From NCBI GenBank assembly GCA_016906335.1, contig JADEYG010000015.1, positions 620,001 to 684,000 of the forward strand: DNA of 64,000 bases. Direction: 5' to 3'. Positions 25,782 to 55,152 of this stretch are shown here, one piece after another; the first letter of the stretch is position 1; every line of letters begins with the position of its first letter. This DNA comes from Novakomyces olei (lineage: Eukaryota > Ascomycota > Novakomycetes > Novakomycetales > Novakomycetaceae). The notes under the pieces are model-generated. The model was not told the origin of the DNA. It was given only the letters and a program-made list of their open reading frames with translations, and did not search any database. Made by a program: the position numbers and the translations under genes.

Positions 25782-27955
25782 ATGCCTCCAGTTCCAAATT
25801 GTACGTCGCGACGTCGCTTTTGTTTCCTCAGAATTCTGTCTTCATCAGCCTCTGTCTCCAACTTTTGTCTTTGAACATTTATCTTTCAACATCTCTCTTT
25901 TAATTTCACTTTTCCCTTGTTGATTCGCACGGGTCCACTAACGCACTAGCGCTCTCAAATGTACGGCACATCGTCCTCGTGCTGTCCGGCAAAGGCGGCG
26001 TCGGCAAGTCCAGTGTGACAATGCAGCTGGCGCTTACACTGGCACGCGAGTCACACAGAGGCCGGCCGCTAAGAATCGGAGTTCTGGACATAGACTTGAC
26101 GGGGCCTTCGGCTCCGCGAATGTTTGGCCTCGATGACGAGGCCACTGTTTCGCGTGTCCGGCAGTCGAGTGCCGGCTGGATCCCCGTTTACGTGGATGGC
26201 GAGACGGCAATTGGCGTAATGTCTATCGGATTCCTTCTTGATTCCCGTGGCGATGCTGTTGTATGGAGAGGACCCAAGAAGACTGCCATGATCCGCCAGT
26301 TTTTGACCGACGTTGTGTGGGGCAATTTGGATTACTTGCTCATAGACACTCCGCCGGGGACGAGTGATGAGCATATTAGCGTTATCGAGACTCTGCTCTC
26401 GTACGAATTGCCGCCCTCTCGCTCTGGAACCAGTCTCGTTTCCGGAGCAGTGCTGGTAACGACACCCCAGCAAGTCGCTGTCCTCGACGTCCGGAAAGAA
26501 CTCGACTTTTGCCGTAAAGTCGACGTGCCCGTTATCGGGATCGTAGAAAACATGTCTGGCTACATTTGCCCTTTTTGTGCTGACTGTACAAACATCTTTA
26601 GCAGTGGAGGCGGTGAAGCAATGGCTCAAGAGTACAATGTGCCCTTCCTTGGCCGAGTGCCGATTGATCCAAAATTGGTGGAGTTGATTGAAGCCAAGGG
26701 AGAGGGTGGGGATAAGAGTCTGCACCTGCCGGACAGGTACAAGACGTTACAAATTGCTCCGATTTTTACAGGAATTACTACAGCAATCCGCACGTTTTTA
26801 CGCGATACTGACCCAAAACTGGTGGAAATTAAGGCATTCGAGGGCCACACTGACCGTGTCTGGCAGGCGGTTCAGCACCCGACACTGCCGCTGCTTGCCA
26901 CTGCCTCTTCAGACAAGACTGTACGCGTCTGGAACACAAAGACTGGGCAGCTGATTGCAATTTTAGAGTCCCAGCATAAAAGATCCGTTCGGTCTGTTGC
27001 CTGGCGGCCGAACCTTAACCAGAATAGCTCAACGACTACCCTGGCAACTGCCTCGTTTGATGGGACGGTAGCAATCTGGGAAAATGTTGAAAACGATTTT
27101 GAGCGAGCAGCAGAGCGGTTCGAGTGTATGGCTACTCTAGAAGGCCATGAAAACGAGGTTAAATCTGTGGCCTGGTCGCCCAGCGGATCATTGCTGGCAA
27201 CCTGTTCAAGAGACAAGTCCGTGTGGATCTGGGAGGTCTCTGGAGAAGACGAGGAGTACGACTGCCTGGCCGTCTTGCAGGAACATACACAGGACGTTAA
27301 ATGCGTTTGCTGGCACCCGCAAGAGGAGCTTTTAGCCAGTTGTTCGTACGATGACACTGTACGGCTCTGGCGGGACGATGGAGAAGACTGGACGAGTGTA
27401 GCTATTCTGCAAGGCCACAATTCAACTGTATGGAGCGTTGATTTTGGTCCGGATGAGACAAAAGAGTCTGTAAACACGTCTCCTACAAATGCTGCTAGAT
27501 TGGCCTCCGTTTCCGATGATGGCACATTACGGATATGGAGACGGCAAAAGGGCAAAGGCGGGCCCATAGCCGATGCCATTCCGAGTGTAATAAGACCCGA
27601 TTTGACAGAGGAATGGGAAGAGGAAGCAGTTCTACAGGTTAATAGCCCTCTGTACTCTGTCGCCTGGTCGAAACGGACGGGCCGTATTGTCTGTGCCGGT
27701 AGCGAGGGGATTTTATATGTATACGAAGAGAATACATCTGAAAATGAAAAGGAAGAAGTAGATTTACAAAACAAGAGTACAATTCACAGCGAAAAAGATG
27801 CTTTCGTTTCTACCTGGACACTTGTCGCCCAACTGCCTCGAGCACACGGAGTGTTTGAAGTGAATGGCGTCTCTTGGGGAATTGACGCCAACAAAAACGA
27901 GACTTTATACTCTGCCGGCGACGACGGTGTCGCCCGTGCTTGGAGAATAGAGTAG
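25782..27955 (+). CDS. cfd1-cia1: Cfd1/NUBP2 ATPase fused to Cia1 WD40 protein, 2 exons
   Basis: Exon 1 (25782-25800) encodes 'MPPVPN' plus one base; the intron 25801-25949 ends CTAACGCACTAG; exon 2 is 25950-27955. The product is 674 residues. The N-terminal about 280 residues are an Mrp/NBP35 P-loop ATPase: deviant Walker A '[10 protein letters not shown]' near residues 18-27, '[11 protein letters not shown]', and a C-terminal Cys213-Pro-Phe-Cys216 that bridges a [4Fe-4S] cluster between scaffold subunits. From about residue 288 to the end come seven WD40 blades ('[12 protein letters not shown]', '[13 protein letters not shown]', '[12 protein letters not shown]'), matching Cia1, the platform that hands clusters to nuclear and cytosolic apoproteins. 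S. pombe has the same fusion (SPAC806.02c). Early and late steps of cytosolic Fe-S assembly are thus in one chain. The 19-nt coding first exon is notable. Confidence 0.93.
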
Positions 27956-34100: not shown

Positions 34101-34720
34101 AGTGTCGACAAGAAGCGACAGGGTATCACGATTGAAGCAGGCTCGTACCTCGACCTGGCGAGATAGGTACAGTTCTTTCATGTGACTCTTGCTCCGTTTG
34201 TCCCATTTTTTAAGTGCTTTGTAAAAGCCGGTAGCATTGAGCTCAACAAATTGCTGTAGCTTATTCAAGTCTTTCTCAAATTGCTCATAGGCTTCACGGA
34301 TAACGACAAGAGAGGGTAAAATGCGCGCTTTTGCGGGGTCTTCAATACTTTGCTGGAAAAGGCGTCTTTGCTCTTCCAATATGTTGAGGCGTGTCCGCAG
34401 CTCGGTTTCTCGCAATTCATAAAACTCGTTTACCTTATCAAGCTCGCGTTCCAGCTTGAAGAAAAAGGTTGCTCTATTGTCTTTGAGCGCGTCTCCTCTG
34501 GCCGGGTCATCTAGGGCATTTATGATCTTTTTGAGTGCCTTGTAGTTGATATAAAAGGGAGCAAATTCGGGCAATTGCTGCCGTGCGAGGTTTTTACCAA
34601 ACTTCCTATCAAATGTTAGTGTACCGTGAAGATTTCAGATTTATTTATTTTATTTCATTCCAAAATTCTTTTTCAATCCAGCCTTCCACAGTGTTCGGCC
34701 GGAAAAAAGTGGCCGTACAT
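31160..34720 (-). CDS. pho81: Pho81-type SPX-ankyrin CDK inhibitor, 4 exons, split start codon
   Basis: Minus-strand coding segments 34720-34719, 34605-31766, 31605-31400 and 31324-31160 give 1070 residues (Neurospora NUC-2 is similar in size). Exon 2 begins G AAG TTT GGT, right after a CTAAC branch and TAG acceptor. The best upstream partner is an AT at 34720-34719 followed by a GTACGG donor, so the initiator ATG is split and the protein starts 'MKFGKNLARQQLPEFAPFYI', the usual SPX N-terminus. Domains: SPX to about 200, six or so ankyrin repeats about 230-480 ('GRSALHYACLQT', 'YRPLHYAILYG', 'GHSPAYHAAWEG'), then a C-terminal glycerophosphodiesterase-like domain to the end. In fungi this protein senses phosphate and inositol pyrophosphate and inhibits the Pho80-Pho85 type kinase under phosphate starvation. 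The exact first exon is inferred. Confidence 0.88.
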
Positions 34721-35576
34721 GGCAAGGGAAGCTGCGACTCCCCTGGGATTGCTCCTTCACGTTCTCTTTGAGCAAGGTCACATGCACAATAACCAAAAGG
34801 CAGTGGCACAAGAGAGAAAAATGGGTAATATTAACAACAAAATTTCCAGATAGGTTCGGCCAGACCACCGAGCGCACTAGTCAGATTCCACTAGTACAAT
34901 ATCCTGTTGAAATTCCAGTGAAAATCAGCCTTGCATGTCGTCCGCCTTGGAGTAAATAGTACAACAGTACTTTGCATTTTTATTATTTTTGAATATTCCT
35001 TACTCTGGCGTTATTCTGCATACGCCATTATCCACTCTAACGCTCAAACTATGGTGTTGCGCCGCACGTGAAACATTTACTGGCTATTATTGGACTTTAG
35101 TCGCCCTATTATCGTACCTAAACCTTACTTATAGTGTGTATCGCTAAATAAAAATGAAGTACCAATATTGCGAGACGATCTTAGACTATTTATTACATTA
35201 GGATCACGAATTTTGTAAGTCCTCCTCAAGTCTAACCCTGGCTAACCCTAACATAGATAGATTCATGGACGTTCGCCATGGTTTCTGGGTCTCGTCCCTA
35301 CGGCAAATAATGTATACATACATTTCTCCAAGGTACTGGCGCCTTTTTGTACAAATTTAATCTAAACAATTTGATTCAATTTAATTTATGCGTAAACTAT
35401 TCAAAGGCACAACGGCCTATACTATTTATCTCTACCTCGCATATCTCTGGACGCGCCTTATCTTCCATCTCCAAGTTTCGTGACAAACCTGGTTCGATAT
35501 TACAATATATAGAGTACGTTAGTCTGTACATTGACTGATGACAATTATATAGCCTTACACAATACCGCGCGTCCAC
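34721..35576. promoter_or_regulatory. Divergent intergenic region pho81/ect1-tmk
   Basis: About 0.85 kb between start codons. A GACGCGCC near 35450 and CGCGCGT at 35566 resemble MCB/SCB-like cell-cycle boxes, fitting a thymidylate kinase gene, but short GC motifs like these are weak evidence. No ORF of interest. Confidence 0.4.
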
Positions 35577-38078
35577 ATGGATAAAGAACTGGACGCCCAT
35601 CGTGTCTGGCTAGATGGCTGCTGGGACTTTTTTGTAATACTTTAAGCTCTTCAATTCTAACTTTGATAGCATCATGGTACTCGAAACCGCAAGTCTAAAC
35701 TACTAACGGGCAAGGCCATGCTGGAGCGATTAGACAAGCCAAACTTATGGCGCCAATTCTCGTGGTCGGATGCCATTCCGACGAAGACATCGAGCGTAAT
35801 AAAGGCCCAACTGTCATGAAACAGCCAGAGAGGTATTTGCTTTATTAGACGTTCGTTCTCTAAGTCTAAAGACTCGCTGCAATTGCCGCTTGCCGCTGGG
35901 TGGACGAAGTAGTCCCTAATGCCCCGTACGTCACGCAGGTAGAATGGATGGATCGGTATCATTGCATGTACGTCGTACACGGTGACGATGTTACTACCGA
36001 CGCTGCGGGCAACGATACTTATGCTCAATTGAAAAAGTTGCACAGGTATATTGACGCGTTTAATACGTGTACGCTTTGCATTCATATACAGGCTACGGTG
36101 TCCCTTGTCGTCATCTACTTTACAGTTTTCGACTTGCTTTTGCTAGTTTGCAGTTTACTGTCCTCTATACGCTATTATTTCCTAGTATCGAGCGAACAAA
36201 CGAATTGATCTCGAACAAAATATCATGCTTTTCGTGTTTAATTGCCACATACTTACTTTTGTGATCTAACATACAGGTACAAAGAATGCAAGCGTACTAT
36301 TGGGATTTCAACAACCGATTTAGTAGGCCGAATGCTGGTGGGAACGAAGGAGCACCATATATCGCCCTTATCAAATTTTGTAACGCGACAGAGCACTGTA
36401 TCGGTATTTGAAGATTATGCAAAGGCGAGTGATGCAGTCGCGCCTTGGGCAACCCTGTTTCGCATTGATCCTCTCAGCGATTCTCCTCCACAAGTCTTAG
36501 TGGAAGGCGTGCATCCTTCAGAGAGTTGTGTTCCGATATTTGTATCAGGAGCATGGGATCTGTTCTCTCCAACCCATATTGATTTCTTACGTCGTGTCCA
36601 TGAAGCTCATACAAATGCGTTTGTTGTTGTGGGCATAGAAGATGATCGGGTATGTTTGTCAAATTCCCTAATTTTGTCAAGTACATTTGATTTTATCATC
36701 AAATTTATCATAAATAAATGAATTTCAGTCTTCCAAGTTCTATCTTTATTAATTTTTTCCGGCTGCCTATTGTCTCTTTGCGAATGCTGGGCTTTACTTG
36801 CCATTTGTTTATATTTCGTTCTTACTTTTTTGCATTCAGTTTGAATATCAATTTGATTATACTTTCATCTGTTTTGTATTATCATTCTTGATAATTCTTT
36901 ATTCGGTTTCGGTGAAGTCAGTCTTATGTTATCCTCTTGACATTGTCTCCTTGAAACTCTTTTCTTGTTTATTTACCTCATCATCTAATCCGTAGACAGT
37001 CAATGGCCATGAAGGCTTCAATTTCCCTATAATGAACCTTTACGAACGTACGCTCTGCCTTCTACAATGTCGTTATGTGTCTGCTGTTGTTATGGGAGTC
37101 CCGCGTAAGTTGGATCCGGCTATTCTTGCCTCATTACCCAAAGATTTCCGTCCGCGTTATATTTACCGACCGGGCGTTGACACGGCAATTGCCACTGGCT
37201 CAGTTGCTGAACAAGACTTGCGGTTCAATGACGTCGATAATGTCCGTACAATAAATGATCTGCAGTTCAATACGAGCAGCAGCCTTATTGTTCAGCGAAT
37301 AATGGACCGTCGAACGGAGTACGAGTTGCGACAGGCAAGAAAGACGGCTAAAGCTGATCACGAACAGAGACTAAAAGCCGAGGCGGCTAAAGAAATCCCT
37401 ATTAGCAATGCAGCACTGGCATCAGCGGATAGTAGAGGCCGACTGATTGTTATTGAGGGCCTCGATCGCAGTGGAAAATCGTCCCAGGCCGCCCGATTAC
37501 AGGAAGCGTTAACGGTAAAAGGTACCCAAGTCAAATCTTACAAGTTTCCTGATCGCGGAACAATTATGGGTAAAATGATCAATGAGTATTTGCAAATGAA
37601 GGCAGAGATGGAAGATCATGCAGTTCATTTGCTGTTTGCGGCCAACAGATGGGAACGAGTGGGCGATATTTTACGAGATTTGCAAGGGGGTACCACAGTG
37701 ATTGTGGACAGGTTTTTCTATTCTGGTATTTGCTTTTCTGCGGCAAAGCAGCTTTTAAACGGCCAGCCGGCACTCGACTGGGACTGGTGCAAAGCACCAG
37801 ACAAGGGCTTACCCATCCCTGATGTTATCTTGTTCCTCAATGTTTCTCCACAAGTTCAGCGGGAAAGAGGAGGGTATGGACAGGAAAGGTACGAAACACA
37901 GAGCCTGCAGGAGAGGGTACGCACAAACTTTGGGAAAGCTCAGTCAGACTTTGAAAAGCGTGGCGGGTTATGGTGCGAAATTGATGCTAATCAGTCAATG
38001 GATGCTGTTACTGGCCAAGTTGAAAGGGCGGTAACCTTGTTGTTCGAAGAGGACCCTGGACCACTGACGAGATTTTGA
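35577..38078 (+). CDS. ect1: Ethanolamine-phosphate cytidylyltransferase fused to thymidylate kinase, 6 exons
   Basis: Exons 35577-35633, 35670-35676 (7 nt), 35715-35832, 35872-36045, 36277-36649 and 36996-38078 give 603 residues. Residues 1 to about 375 are a CDP-ethanolamine synthase: 'VWLDGCWDFF' then H20-H-G-H23, 'ILVVGCHSDEDIERNKGP', 'WVDEVVPNAPYVT', 'RTIGISTTDLVGRML', a second cytidylyltransferase-like domain ('FVSGAWDLFSPTHIDFL'), and 'SSLIVQRIMDRR'. Exon 6 then continues without break into a full dTMP kinase (about 392-603): P-loop 'GLDRSGKS' (Lys404), 'KFPDRGTIMGKMINEYL', 'DHAVHLLFAANRWE', 'VDRFFYSG' and lid 'GYGQERYE'. No Met lies between the C-terminal Ect1 helix and the P-loop. 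The chain would make CDP-ethanolamine in the Kennedy pathway and dTDP for DNA synthesis. The second Ect1 HxGH reads S-P-T-H and is probably inactive, as in some other fungi. Confidence 0.92.
35670..35676 (+). other. 7-nt microexon of ect1-tmk
   Basis: CATCATG is flanked by a 36-nt intron (GTAATA donor, TCTAAC branch, GATAG end) and a 38-nt intron (GTACTC donor, ACTAAC branch, GCAAG end). Including it restores H-H-G-H, the catalytic signature of cytidylyltransferases, and keeps frame on both sides. Skipping it changes phase by one. Confidence 0.8.
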
Positions 38079-50869: not shown

Positions 50870-50982
50870 GGTTATGAGCCTGGATCGTTAGCCTTCAGAG
50901 CCAACAAAAATTTTTTGCTATCCAAAAAGCACTATCGTTTAATTAATTCTGTTCTCCCTTATCACCTGACAATCCTGTCATA

Positions 50983-53900
50983 ATGGAAACAGACGCACCA
51001 CTGAATATGCCTGCTCAGCCTCAAGGAAATAGCAGCTACTCTGCTCAAACAGCCCCTACGAAAATCTCTTTTCAGAAGCTCCGAGGCTCTGAAAACTACG
51101 ATATATGGGCGCAGAACATGAAGGCCCATCTCAATGGGCTTGGCTTGTTTGGTTACGTCTCTGGCCGAATTAAGGAGCCAGAGAAGAAAGTCAAGGAAGT
51201 GAAGGACGAAAAGACGGCCGAGATCGAGGACGACACGGCGTCTATCCTCTCCGACGACGATTACGAGGATGTAAGCGATGAGCTAGCCACCTGGAAGCGC
51301 AACTGCTCCCTAGCTCTAAGCTACATCTTGAGTAATATATCTGTTGAAATCAACAGACGTGTGAAAAGACTTACAAGTCCCAAGGAAGTTTGGAGACTTT
51401 TGAAAAGGGAATATGCGCAGGCAGGTTTCTCCTACGTCGGTACTTGCTACCAAAATTTCTTCAGCCTGAGACTCCCCAGTGAACAGGCTAGAACTCCAGA
51501 GGAGTACTGCCGTAAGTTCGTCGACCGCCTAGAAACCTTTGAGTCTGCAGGGGAAAAGGTCGGAAGATATACACAAATTTATACTTTCCTTACTGGTATA
51601 GAAATGGAGTATAGTCAGTTTGTCCAAATACAAAAAGACACCTACGACGTAAAGAACCCACTAGACCTTGACGTGATAATAGAACGCTTTCTAAATCACA
51701 GTCGTGGCCGGGTTGCAGACTCCGAATTGGCATTAGTCGCCAAAGGAGCCAACTACAAGAAAAGGGACCAGTGCAGTTTCTGCAACAAGACTGGACATCT
51801 CTCGGAAAATTGTTGGAAAAGGTTCCCCGAAAAGAGACCAGGAGTTACAAAAAGGGGGCCGAAGGAGGCGACCAAGACGTTTGTTGCCTCTGCGCAAGTT
51901 TCTTCTTTTACGGCAGTGCCAAATACAACGGCATGGATTGTGGACTCAGGTGCTACACAGCACATGTGTAACAGTCCAGCTTGGATTACGAACCTTAAGC
52001 CCACGAACAATCAGTGGGTGGAGACGGGGTCAGGCAAGACTCCGGCCCTAGGAGTTGGCAACGTCACACTCAATGTGCGCAAGCCAAGTGGTGTGGTAAC
52101 GCAACTCACATTTGGCAACGTACTTTATGTGCCAGCTCTGCCCATCAATCTTCTCTCCATGACAATACTTGTCGAGCGAGGTCTGAACTTTGAGATACGC
52201 TCTGAAGGGCCTTTGGTCAGACACGCAGGAGAAGATGAGGTACTTACGAAACTAATCAGTTATAAGGGCCACTGGATGTTGGATTGTATTGGTCAACCGA
52301 CAAGCAAAAACCAGTCCAAAGACGAAGCAACAGCCCTTATCGTAGCCACAGAGAATGTCTGGCACAAGCGTTATGGTCACGCTTCGGCCAAAACAATCTC
52401 TCAGACGGCAAACCATGTTATAGGCATGGACATTGCCCCGGCATTAGAGCCGGAGGGTGCATGTACAGTCTGCGAACTCTCCAAGTCGCACAGGACAGTA
52501 CATCGCCAGACACTGGAGCGAGCTACCGAGAAGCTCGACCGAGTCTACATGGACTTAATGGGTCCAATGAGCCAAATATCCAGAGACGGATACCGCTACG
52601 TAATCATCTTGACCGATGAAGTCAGTCGTTTTCGCTGGATCATACCTTTGACCTCGAAAACAGCTAGCTCAGTTCTTTCGGCAATAAAGCTCTGGACTGA
52701 ATTCATCAAGAATTACTTCAAGGCAATGCCAAAGTCCATTCGCACAGACGGCGGTCTTGAATTTACCTCTGCTCAACCCTGGCTTACATCACTGGGAGTT
52801 AAAATTGAAAACACCGTGCCATATACGCCTGAGCAAAATGGAATGGCAGAGCGTAGCAACGGGCTAATAAGTGAAAAGGCCAGGGCACTCAGCATCGGAG
52901 GATGTTTGAAGGAAGACATGTGGTATGCAGCTATGGAGACAGCTACATATCTCCTCAACGTACAATTCACCAAAACGCTGAACATGACACCTCATGAAGC
53001 ACTTTATGGGACACTGCCACGAGTGGACCACATTAAAGTGTATGGATGCAGAGTATATGTCCACATCCCACATGAAAAACGTGTCAAAAGCGACAAACTA
53101 GGCAGTCGTGCACAGATTGGCAAGCTGGTTGGTTACGAAAGCCATACCATTTATAAAATCCAGCTGCCAAGCGGCCAAACGACACGGTCAAGTCACGTCA
53201 GGTTCGATGAAAACACCATCGATGACTACACCGGCAACAACATCAGCAGCCCACCAAACTTTCAGGTGCCTGATGAAGAAAATGCTGCCTTGTCCCCACT
53301 CCTGACACCGCTGCCGTTGCAGCAGCCGGAGGGTGAGGACAGTGATAAAGTCACTATCACCGAAGGGCCGCCGACAACGACAGCAGCGGACAGGAGTGAG
53401 GAGGACTCATCAAACAATGAAAAAATCCAACAAGCTAGCAACACTCACGCTGAGCCGGAGCAAGCTAACAACACTCACGCTGAGCCGGAACAGCAACTGA
53501 CAATAATTAGTGAAGCACCTGTGCCGAGCCTGCGTCGGTCAGCACGTCTAAACGAAACGCAGAAGTCTCTACTTACTGTTGCTCATGCAGTTTACATAGA
53601 GCCGCAGACTCTCCGAGAGGCACTCGAGTCCCCACAAGCTCGGGAATGGACCGAAGCTTGCCATGCGGAACTCAAGTCGTTAGACAAAAACGAGACCTGG
53701 ACGTTAGTGAACAAGTCCGACATTGAAAAGGGCAAGCACGTCTTAAAAGGCAAATGGGTCTTTAAAATAAAGAGAGACACAGAAGGCAATGTGCAAAAAT
53801 ACAAAGCAAGATGGGTTGTAAAAGGTTATTTGCAAAAGGAAGGAATTGATTACCAAGAGACCTTTGCGCCTGTAGTACATACCGCGACGTGGAGAATGGT

Positions 53901-55152
53901 ATTGGCCATTGTCGCATTCAAAGATCTGGAATGTGACCAGATGGACTTCGAAACCGCTTTTCTGAACGCACAAGTACAAGAAGAAGTGTACGTCGAACAA
54001 CCTGTCGGCTTCGAAACCGGAAAGGACCAAGTATGCAAGCTTCGCAAAACATTGTATGGACTAAAACAGTCTCCACGCGAGTGGTACAAATGTCTGCGCC
54101 AGATGTTCAGGCAGCTTGGGTTCATTCCCCTTAAATCCGATAACTCAGTATTCGTCCGGGACGAGAATGAAATAATTCTCGCCCATACAGACGATTTGCT
54201 GGTCATCGCAGCTACAGAATCAAAGTTAGCTGACATTAAAAAGGAAATTAAAACGGCTTACGTAGCCAAGGACCTCGGTCCGGCGAACCTTTTCGTCGGA
54301 ATACAAATTGTACGAGACAGAAAGCATAGAAGCATAGAGCTTAAACAAGAACACTATGTCACTAATATGCTTGAACGCTTCGGAATGATGGACTGCAAGG
54401 CCATCGAAACCCCAATGGCCGAGGATAGAGAGGCCATTGGTGGACAGCCCGAGTCAGAGCCGACCAAAGAGATGCAAACGCAGTACCAGCAACTCATAGG
54501 TTCGCTGCTCTTTGCGTCGACTCAGACGCGACCCGACATAGCCTACGCGGTTAACACCCTGGCTCGACATATGCACCGGCCAAGTGAAGAGCACTTGACT
54601 GCTGCCAAAAGAGTCTTGAGATATCTAAAAGGAACAAAAACTTACAGTATCAAGTATAGATTCAGCAAGGACAACATGGACCTAAAGGTCCATACGGACT
54701 CGGACTGGGCAGGCGACCCAGACACCAGACGGTCATGCTCTGGTTTCATACTCTTGGCCGGTGGAGGACCTGTGTCGTGGAGATCAACTCTCCAAACGAC
54801 AGTGGCTCTCTCCTCCACTGAGGCCGAGTATGTTGGCTTGTCGATCAGTGGCCAAGAGGTGCTGTGGGCCCAACAGCTCCTCTTGGAACTGAACTACAAT
54901 GAGGACGACAGATTGCCTATGATTGTCCTGGAGGACAACCAAGGCGCTATCGCCCTCGCCAAGAACCCGCAATTTCACCGAAGGACAAAACACGTAGCCA
55001 TCCGATGGCACTTTGTCCGTGAGCTAACGGAGTCAGAAAGAATAAAAATCAAGTACATACCAACCGCTCGTATGGCAGCTGACGGCCTTACAAAACCGCT
55101 CCGCAAGCTACTGTTTAAAAACTTTACAAAGTTAGTTGGAGTGAGCGAATAA
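50983..55152 (+). CDS. Copia Gag-Pol polyprotein (element gene)
   Basis: A single 1389-codon frame. Order: Gag helical region to about 260; zinc knuckle 'CSFCNKTGHLSENC'; protease with 'WIVDSGATQHM'; pre-integrase and integrase (about 470-760, 'ENTVPYTPEQNGMAERSN'); reverse transcriptase (about 900-1150, 'YGLKQSPREWY'); and RNase H at the end ('VALSSTEAEY'). Integrase before reverse transcriptase is the copia order. Gag and Pol lie in one frame, as in many copia elements. It belongs to the element, not the host. Confidence 0.95.
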   Translation: METDAPLNMPAQPQGNSSYSAQTAPTKISFQKLRGSENYDIWAQNMKAHLNGLGLFGYVSGRIKEPEKKVKEVKDEKTAEIEDDTASILSDDDYEDVSDELATWKRNCSLALSYILSNISVEINRRVKRLTSPKEVWRLLKREYAQAGFSYVGTCYQNFFSLRLPSEQARTPEEYCRKFVDRLETFESAGEKVGRYTQIYTFLTGIEMEYSQFVQIQKDTYDVKNPLDLDVIIERFLNHSRGRVADSELALVAKGANYKKRDQCSFCNKTGHLSENCWKRFPEKRPGVTKRGPKEATKTFVASAQVSSFTAVPNTTAWIVDSGATQHMCNSPAWITNLKPTNNQWVETGSGKTPALGVGNVTLNVRKPSGVVTQLTFGNVLYVPALPINLLSMTILVERGLNFEIRSEGPLVRHAGEDEVLTKLISYKGHWMLDCIGQPTSKNQSKDEATALIVATENVWHKRYGHASAKTISQTANHVIGMDIAPALEPEGACTVCELSKSHRTVHRQTLERATEKLDRVYMDLMGPMSQISRDGYRYVIILTDEVSRFRWIIPLTSKTASSVLSAIKLWTEFIKNYFKAMPKSIRTDGGLEFTSAQPWLTSLGVKIENTVPYTPEQNGMAERSNGLISEKARALSIGGCLKEDMWYAAMETATYLLNVQFTKTLNMTPHEALYGTLPRVDHIKVYGCRVYVHIPHEKRVKSDKLGSRAQIGKLVGYESHTIYKIQLPSGQTTRSSHVRFDENTIDDYTGNNISSPPNFQVPDEENAALSPLLTPLPLQQPEGEDSDKVTITEGPPTTTAADRSEEDSSNNEKIQQASNTHAEPEQANNTHAEPEQQLTIISEAPVPSLRRSARLNETQKSLLTVAHAVYIEPQTLREALESPQAREWTEACHAELKSLDKNETWTLVNKSDIEKGKHVLKGKWVFKIKRDTEGNVQKYKARWVVKGYLQKEGIDYQETFAPVVHTATWRMVLAIVAFKDLECDQMDFETAFLNAQVQEEVYVEQPVGFETGKDQVCKLRKTLYGLKQSPREWYKCLRQMFRQLGFIPLKSDNSVFVRDENEIILAHTDDLLVIAATESKLADIKKEIKTAYVAKDLGPANLFVGIQIVRDRKHRSIELKQEHYVTNMLERFGMMDCKAIETPMAEDREAIGGQPESEPTKEMQTQYQQLIGSLLFASTQTRPDIAYAVNTLARHMHRPSEEHLTAAKRVLRYLKGTKTYSIKYRFSKDNMDLKVHTDSDWAGDPDTRRSCSGFILLAGGGPVSWRSTLQTTVALSSTEAEYVGLSISGQEVLWAQQLLLELNYNEDDRLPMIVLEDNQGAIALAKNPQFHRRTKHVAIRWHFVRELTESERIKIKYIPTARMAADGLTKPLRKLLFKNFTKLVGVSE

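Follow-up and report, generated by a model that had tools for sequence, protein, structure and literature searches.

A gene for two enzymes in one reading frame

The 64,000-nucleotide window analysed here, positions 620,001 to 684,000 of contig JADEYG010000015.1 of the ascomycete Novakomyces olei, contains at 35577-38078 on the forward strand a gene in which an ethanolamine-phosphate cytidylyltransferase (Ect1) continues in frame into a thymidylate kinase (Tmk, a dTMP kinase). The published genome is 14.3 Mb in size, in 15 scaffolds and with a GC content of 43.8% (44.4% in the window), and N. olei is placed there as sister to Schizosaccharomyces with 100% bootstrap support, on a long branch (PMC7912804). 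The six exons of the gene join to 1812 nt, that is, 603 amino acids and a stop codon, with five introns out of five of the GT...AG type (36, 38, 39, 231 and 346 nt), an in-frame TAG at 35550 upstream of the start ATG, and a homology to Ect1 of other organisms that is continuous in the alignment across all five exon joins. An earlier reading, made from the letters alone and referred to below as the sequence-only reading, had given the coordinates, exon count and frame of the gene correctly. The encoded protein consists of Ect1 at residues 1-375, a short linker and a type I Tmk at 390-603, both enzymes being whole, and its parts are located as follows.

35577..35633, +: exon 1, start codon and codons 1-19 of Ect1, MDKELDAHRVWLDGCWDFF (upstream in-frame stop; splice join and Ect1 homology)
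35670..35676, +: exon 2, a 7-nt microexon that supplies the HHGH motif (residues 20-23) jointly with exon 3
35715..35832, +: exon 3, first cytidylyltransferase domain of Ect1 (splice join, alignment)
35872..36045, +: exon 4, first cytidylyltransferase domain of Ect1 (splice join, alignment)
36277..36649, +: exon 5, RTIGISTT (residues 125-132) and start of the second cytidylyltransferase-like domain
36996..37391, +: exon 6 up to the linker, comprising the last portion of the second Ect1 domain and the helix at the C-terminus of Ect1 (homology, model)
37278..37391, +: C-terminal Ect1 helix, about residues 338-375 (residues 95-132 in the exon-6 model, predicted as a helix)
37392..37433, +: linker, residues 376-389, without Met and of low predicted confidence
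37434..38075, +: Tmk domain, residues 390-603 (Pfam, structure match, motifs), with the P-loop at 397-405, FPDR at 427-430, DRFFYSG at 481-487 and the LID motif RGGYGQERYE at 534-543
38076..38078, +: stop codon of the fusion

The identity of the first enzyme is clear from its domains and its relatives. The Pfam profile CTP_transf_like matches two stretches (the better at 12-135, E 7e-31), corresponding to two tandem cytidylyltransferase-like domains, and the best solved relative, over residues 7-352, is human PCYT2 (3elb, E 3e-80). With 273.8 bits for this structure against 91.2 for choline-phosphate cytidylyltransferase (4mvc), the fusion is closer to Ect1/PCYT2. Ect1 relies for catalysis on the motifs HxGH and RTxGISTT, and at the first site both are present, as HHGH (20-23) and RTIGISTT (125-132).

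For the second enzyme, the Pfam profile Thymidylate_kin matches at 396-582 (E 2e-39) and the best solved relative, over 387-585, is human TMPK (1e2d, E 1e-48). Type I thymidylate kinases depend on a P-loop, FPDR, DRx and LID motifs, all of which are found here, including the Arg in the P-loop (DRxGKS) and the LID arginines. We modelled the exon-6 protein alone with AlphaFold2 (AF2), using 45 aligned sequences. In the Tmk part, the predicted local distance difference test (pLDDT) was 93-98 per 10-residue block except for two blocks at 77 and 82, and a long helix at about 338-375 closes Ect1, followed by a linker of low confidence. The Ect1 part reached only 31-84 per block, as would be expected for a domain that is cut in this construct and covered by only three aligned rows. 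A Foldseek search with the model returned human TMPK as its first match (1e2f, E 1.6e-24, root-mean-square deviation 1.5 A, TM-score 0.93 by target length).

The junction between the two enzymes lies within exon 6, which reads through 360 codons without a stop; when this exon was shuffled 2000 times by mononucleotide, the longest stop-free stretch in the three forward frames was 195 codons. In-frame ATGs flank the junction at 37302 (Met346, within the helix that closes Ect1) and 37566 (Met434, past the P-loop), with none between them, in agreement with the sequence-only reading, which had described exon 6 as unbroken from Ect1 into Tmk and lacking Met from the end of the last Ect1 helix up to the P-loop, and had correctly assigned Lys404 to the latter (EGLDRSGKS, 397-405). 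Its figure of 212 residues for the kinase is corrected to 214, counted from Arg390. Stand-alone Tmk rows in the alignment have their start Met 2-10 residues ahead of the conserved Arg at the start of the first kinase strand, and the C-terminal end of Ect1 is kept in the fusion as in Neolecta and Protomyces. The loss of the Tmk start Met together with the retention of the Ect1 end thus indicates that the two proteins were linked whole, the end of one to the start of the other.

Pfam, the PCYT2 and TMPK matches and the motifs all uphold the proposal that two complete enzymes are fused in frame, and judged by its sequence the gene most likely gives rise to one polypeptide carrying Ect1 and Tmk as two independent enzymes. 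The N-terminal part would make CDP-ethanolamine from CTP and phosphoethanolamine, and the C-terminal part would phosphorylate dTMP to dTDP as the cell's only dTMP kinase. Such a gene would have formed when ect1 ran in frame into a downstream tmk and both the stop codon of ect1 and the start codon of tmk were lost. We would expect a full-length mRNA, expression of Tmk from what was the ect1 promoter, and two active sites with no channelling between them. Members of the Tmk family dimerise, and a Tmk dimer would make the whole fusion protein dimeric.

The gene contains a further peculiarity in its 7-nt coding microexon (35670-35676), placed between two introns of less than 40 nt. Microexons of such kind may be one possible reason for the low published gene count (3779).

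Copy number, relatives and origin

No second Tmk was found in the 14,339,745-base, 15-contig assembly with the Thymidylate_kin profile and a protein search at E<=10, both of which matched this gene alone; the sequence-only reading had proposed such a check for a stand-alone dTMP kinase. Likewise, a second Ect1 was found neither with a protein query nor with the CTP_transf_like profile. The former gave seven matches (four exons of the fusion, two Pct1-like copies and a weak one at E 0.19), the latter four (the fusion gene, both Pct1-like copies and, on contig C7, a frame that has no significant Ect1 match). That the search copes with introns is seen from its recovery of the intron-split Ect1 of the fusion. 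The two Pct1-like copies, located near contig starts (C11:13655 and C12:13839), are 99.9% identical, with 4 gaps and 0 mismatches over 3388 columns and one frame shorter than the other (338 vs 437 aa), and represent either a recent duplication or an assembly duplicate.

Joined Ect1 and Tmk also occur elsewhere. A whole-protein search scored the 8000 candidates sharing most words with the query, and the best 120 of 486 matches were inspected, which makes any estimate of prevalence a lower bound; among these 120, at least two proteins, P0001 and P0011, carry both enzymes. P0001 (350 aa, 53% identity over 57% of the query) comprises the C-terminal part of Ect1 and Tmk, aligns through the junction and is likewise free of Met from the end of the last Ect1 helix to the P-loop; P0011 (587 aa, 34% identity over 84% of the query) contains both Pfam domains. 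The sequence-only reading had called the fusion unfamiliar, and this holds in so far as we found no paper on it, but the arrangement is not unique to N. olei. When the Tmk part was searched against proteins of about 331-1055 aa, six matched, with P0001 as the only Ect1 fusion; since P0011, with both its domains, was not returned, the sensitivity of this search to distant fusions is limited. A search with the Tmk of P0011 gave 2385 matches of about 209-665 aa, and among the best 120 listed PF01467 was found only in P0011 itself. Stand-alone Tmk proteins are present in S. pombe (210 aa), S. cryophilus (210 aa) and Saitoella (two records of 209 aa), and stand-alone Ect1 in Neolecta (363 aa) and Protomyces (367 aa).

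These relatives bear on two other explanations of the gene. One is that an assembly or sequencing artefact joined two neighbouring genes. The assembly does contain indels, as the gaps and unequal frames of the Pct1-like copies illustrate, but no stop interrupts the frame from Ect1 across the linker to the end of Tmk, and P0001, an independent sequence, has the same domain order and a similar junction, so that we give an artefact almost no credence. With P0001 and P0011 also fused and the genes separate in the relatives named above, a derived fusion rather than an assembly error is most likely. The other explanation, that post-translational cleavage separates Ect1 from Tmk, could draw on a linker that is short, of low predicted confidence and perhaps exposed; the linkers of the query and P0001 are, however, unlike in both length and sequence, and we consider such a cut highly unlikely.

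To place the fusion among its relatives, we used an Ect1 tree of 42 rows (39 hand-picked from the 120 listed proteins plus the three fusions, with no choline-enzyme rows) and a Tmk tree of 50 rows (47 hand-picked plus the three fusions), 25 of whose 47 inner branches are unresolved. The query and P0001 are sisters in both trees (support 100/98), and P0011 sits on very long branches in both. The Ect1 half falls at the base of the Ascomycota, adjoining Protomyces and Neolecta with modest support (85/81 and 84/73); a clade of the query, P0001, Protomyces and Neolecta, as expected for Taphrinomycotina, was not recovered and is near rejection (approximately unbiased test, p-AU 0.0575). Forcing the three fusions into one clade was not rejected for Ect1 (p-AU 0.176) and gave a tree slightly better than the free one for Tmk (p-AU 0.52). 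Because neither constrained clade is rejected, a single origin is possible, and a double origin is possible too. On the sequences at hand, the simplest reading would be that the fusion arose in the Novakomyces line after its split from the fission yeasts, although an older fusion may have been re-split in the latter. One could also speculate that the joining of Ect1 to Tmk happened repeatedly, with one event in the Novakomyces line and a separate one in the ancestry of P0011, in which case the pairing would be advantageous and link growth to replication; we regard this as unlikely.

Products, promoter and the S-phase question

A different outcome of the same gene would be two products, if transcription also began at a promoter within intron 4 or 5 and the shorter mRNA were translated into a free-standing Tmk, starting at Met256, Met276 or Met346. 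Introns 4 and 5 are indeed long (231 and 346 nt, compared with 36-39 nt for the others), but they are ordinary for N. olei, where the median intron length is 261 nt (PMC7912804, Table 2). The ACGCGT in intron 4, at 36054, would fit such a promoter, yet a single copy is consistent with a background rate of 0.25 per kb. The in-frame Met346 is shared with P0001 (IMDRR and IMSRR), but a Met is found there in unfused Ect1 as well (Dothistroma, IVQRIMDRR, P0038) and so does not have to have evolved as a start for Tmk; moreover, in an mRNA that includes the beginning of exon 6, out-of-frame ATGs at 37003 and 37009 precede the first in-frame ATG at 37032. Overall, separate products appear improbable to us.

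The reading of one polypeptide with two whole enzymes does face a number of observations that weigh against it. In principle, Met346 could start a Tmk carrying a 44-residue N-terminal tail. At the HxGH position, the second Ect1 half carries SPTH in the alignment, a degraded motif, so that the claim of intact active-site signatures in both halves holds for the first Ect1 site and for Tmk, and fails for the second Ect1 site. The corresponding motif is SPGH in Neolecta, SAGH in Protomyces, SxGH in Morchella, HPGH in Debaryomyces and HxGH in animals, and since unfused fungal Ect1 also occurs without HxGH, we do not treat SPTH as decisive. The record of P0001 begins inside the second Ect1 domain, and its N-terminal Ect1 half is not seen. 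In the Tmk tree, the fused Tmk does not group with Schizosaccharomyces or Saitoella, although such a grouping is not rejected (p-AU 0.38). Finally, as 13.4% of BUSCOs are missing from the published genome (PMC7912804), the unassembled part could hold another tmk.

The MluI cell-cycle box (MCB), ACGCGT, is an S-phase transcription element in yeasts. As S-phase controls from the same genome we chose the large and small ribonucleotide reductase (RNR) genes, PCNA and thymidylate synthase, with start codons set by eye from the translations, where a 5' intron would displace the upstream region examined. Within 943 bp of the start codon, ACGCGT occurs four times for RNR large, twice for RNR small, three times for PCNA and once for thymidylate synthase, and the MCB programme thus seems, from these sequences, to be in use in the Novakomyces lineage. 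The upstream region of the fusion gene, a candidate promoter reaching to the neighbouring reading frame (34635..35576), contains no ACGCGT and no [AT]CGCG[AT]. Across the window, 251 of 1262 overlapping 943-bp windows have at least one ACGCGT and 695 of 1262 are without [AT]CGCG[AT]; as background windows are mostly without boxes, a box-free upstream region is the ordinary state for a gene here. The one ACGCGT in intron 4 (36054..36059) is probably due to chance. The promoter sequence therefore points, if only weakly, to a dTMP kinase that would be outside the S-phase transcription programme, and the suggestion of the sequence-only reading that the fusion ties the Kennedy pathway to S phase is not supported, with ACGCGT present in all four controls (1-4 copies) and absent from the fusion gene. 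The boxes of two of the controls are clustered, the four upstream of RNR large at L016 1404-1720 and the three upstream of PCNA at L021 1759-1928.

A stronger form of the one-polypeptide reading, compatible with it, is that the fusion was selected as a coupling, where a fixed ratio or co-location of phosphatidylethanolamine synthesis and dTTP supply would keep membrane growth in step with DNA synthesis. The presence of the fusion in P0001 and in the distant P0011 is in line with this. In a deletion screen in S. pombe, ect1 and tmp1 both appear as newly scored cell-cycle genes, and its authors speculate that genes like ect1 connect metabolism with the cell cycle (PMC3866870); in the green alga Desmodesmus, phosphatidylethanolamine and Ect1 increase in G1 (PMC8202326). 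The double score is suggestive only, since 513 of 4843 deletions were scored in that screen, 276 of these being new (PMC3866870). Furthermore, Ect1 and Tmk share no substrate or product, the upstream MCB box is absent, and a neutral fusion would persist too, because the half that is the sole dTMP kinase cannot be lost. We find selected coupling doubtful, and between functional coupling of the two pathways and a neutral accident, coupling is unproven.

Comparison with stand-alone enzymes and other fusions

Compared with stand-alone fungal Ect1 of the PCYT2 family, the fusion has the same tandem-domain order, the HHGH and RTxGISTT motifs and the C-terminal helix region, and differs in having no stop past this helix, in continuing into Tmk and in the SPTH of its second domain. 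Its kinase resembles stand-alone type I Tmk (S. pombe Tmp1, Saitoella, human TMPK) in the P-loop with Arg, FPDR, DRx and LID motifs and in the human TMPK fold; unlike these, it is fused at its N-terminus and has no start Met. It also carries a 7-residue insertion ahead of WxWC, which among nine aligned rows is otherwise found only in P0001. Other long proteins likewise contain a Tmk domain within a longer predicted chain, joined to an S9 peptidase (P0122, P0242) or a Lys-tRNA synthetase (P0219, P0121, P0123-P0125), but these have no Ect1, as called from the sequence for P0121-P0125 and from the listed Pfam domains for P0219 and P0242; P0122 and P0219 were also included as rows in the Tmk tree. 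In a predicted protein of Bremia lactucae (P0126, 437 aa), the whole Tmk is tandemly duplicated, by eye exactly, which is probably an annotation or assembly artefact.

The window itself holds another joined frame, at 25904-27955 (+), where 683 open codons combine a Cfd1/NUBP2-like P-loop ATPase (19-264) with a WD40 propeller resembling Cia1; S. pombe presumably has a Cfd1-Cia1 fusion as well, SPAC806.02c. A stop-free Copia-like gag-pol frame of 1401 aa at 50947-55152 (+) is a retrotransposon, named by eye. As for the neighbourhood of the unfused genes, S. pombe ect1 (SPAC15E1.05c) may lie next to the thymidylate synthase gene SPAC15E1.04; the name SPAC15E1.05c was in no paper found. The name SPAC15E1.04 occurs in PMC3815194.

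The Ect1-Tmk fusion was not described in the full-text literature searched, a search whose reach leaves out most subscription papers. Thymidylate kinase is unmentioned in the main text of PMC10411802, the word "fusion" is absent from the main text of the N. olei genome paper (PMC7912804), and PMC3866870 handles S. pombe ect1 and tmp1 as separate genes; a further match, PMC5407577, concerns nucleoside transport in Leishmania, and broader searches brought up no title dealing with the fusion. What we describe is thus an enzyme pairing new to the literature searched; it occurs in a lineage beside the fission yeasts and includes the one dTMP kinase that was found in the assembly. In practical terms, the phenotype of an "ect1" knock-out in N. 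olei would be misread unless the Tmk half were supplied.

The closest precedent is found in the same genome, where the thymidylate synthase frame (623 residues) has an N-terminal Flavoprotein domain (PPCDC/Hal3-like) at 56-237 and thymidylate synthase at 338-623.

Contig C5, about 227028-228899 (L017 528-2399), minus strand: Hal3-like-thymidylate synthase frame (domain search)

In S. pombe, Hal3-thymidylate synthase is a single polypeptide whose N-terminal part has PPCDC activity and whose C-terminal part is thymidylate synthase (PMC4978486), and a table note in PMC9604783 records the fusion in the genus Schizosaccharomyces. Its presence in both N. olei and Schizosaccharomyces suggests that this fusion is older than their split. 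Two successive steps of dTTP synthesis are thus the C-terminal halves of fusions in the N. olei genome, each locked to an unrelated membrane-lipid or cofactor enzyme, which offers a clean system for asking whether such fusions are frozen accidents or couplers of membrane growth to DNA precursor supply. As in S. pombe Hal3 (SpHal3), a protein of the sister lineage, the Ect1-Tmk fusion has a thymidylate-pathway enzyme as its C-terminal half beside an unrelated metabolic enzyme (PMC4978486); the partner in SpHal3 is PPCDC/Hal3 instead of Ect1, and the dTTP step is the synthase instead of the kinase. In SpHal3, both halves are functional within a single polypeptide, whereas Ect1-Tmk is known here from its DNA reading frame. 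By analogy, Hal3-thymidylate synthase is most likely the best model for Ect1-Tmk, that of two independent enzymes on one chain, and the fusion is, for all the novelty of its pairing in the literature searched, one of a known general kind.

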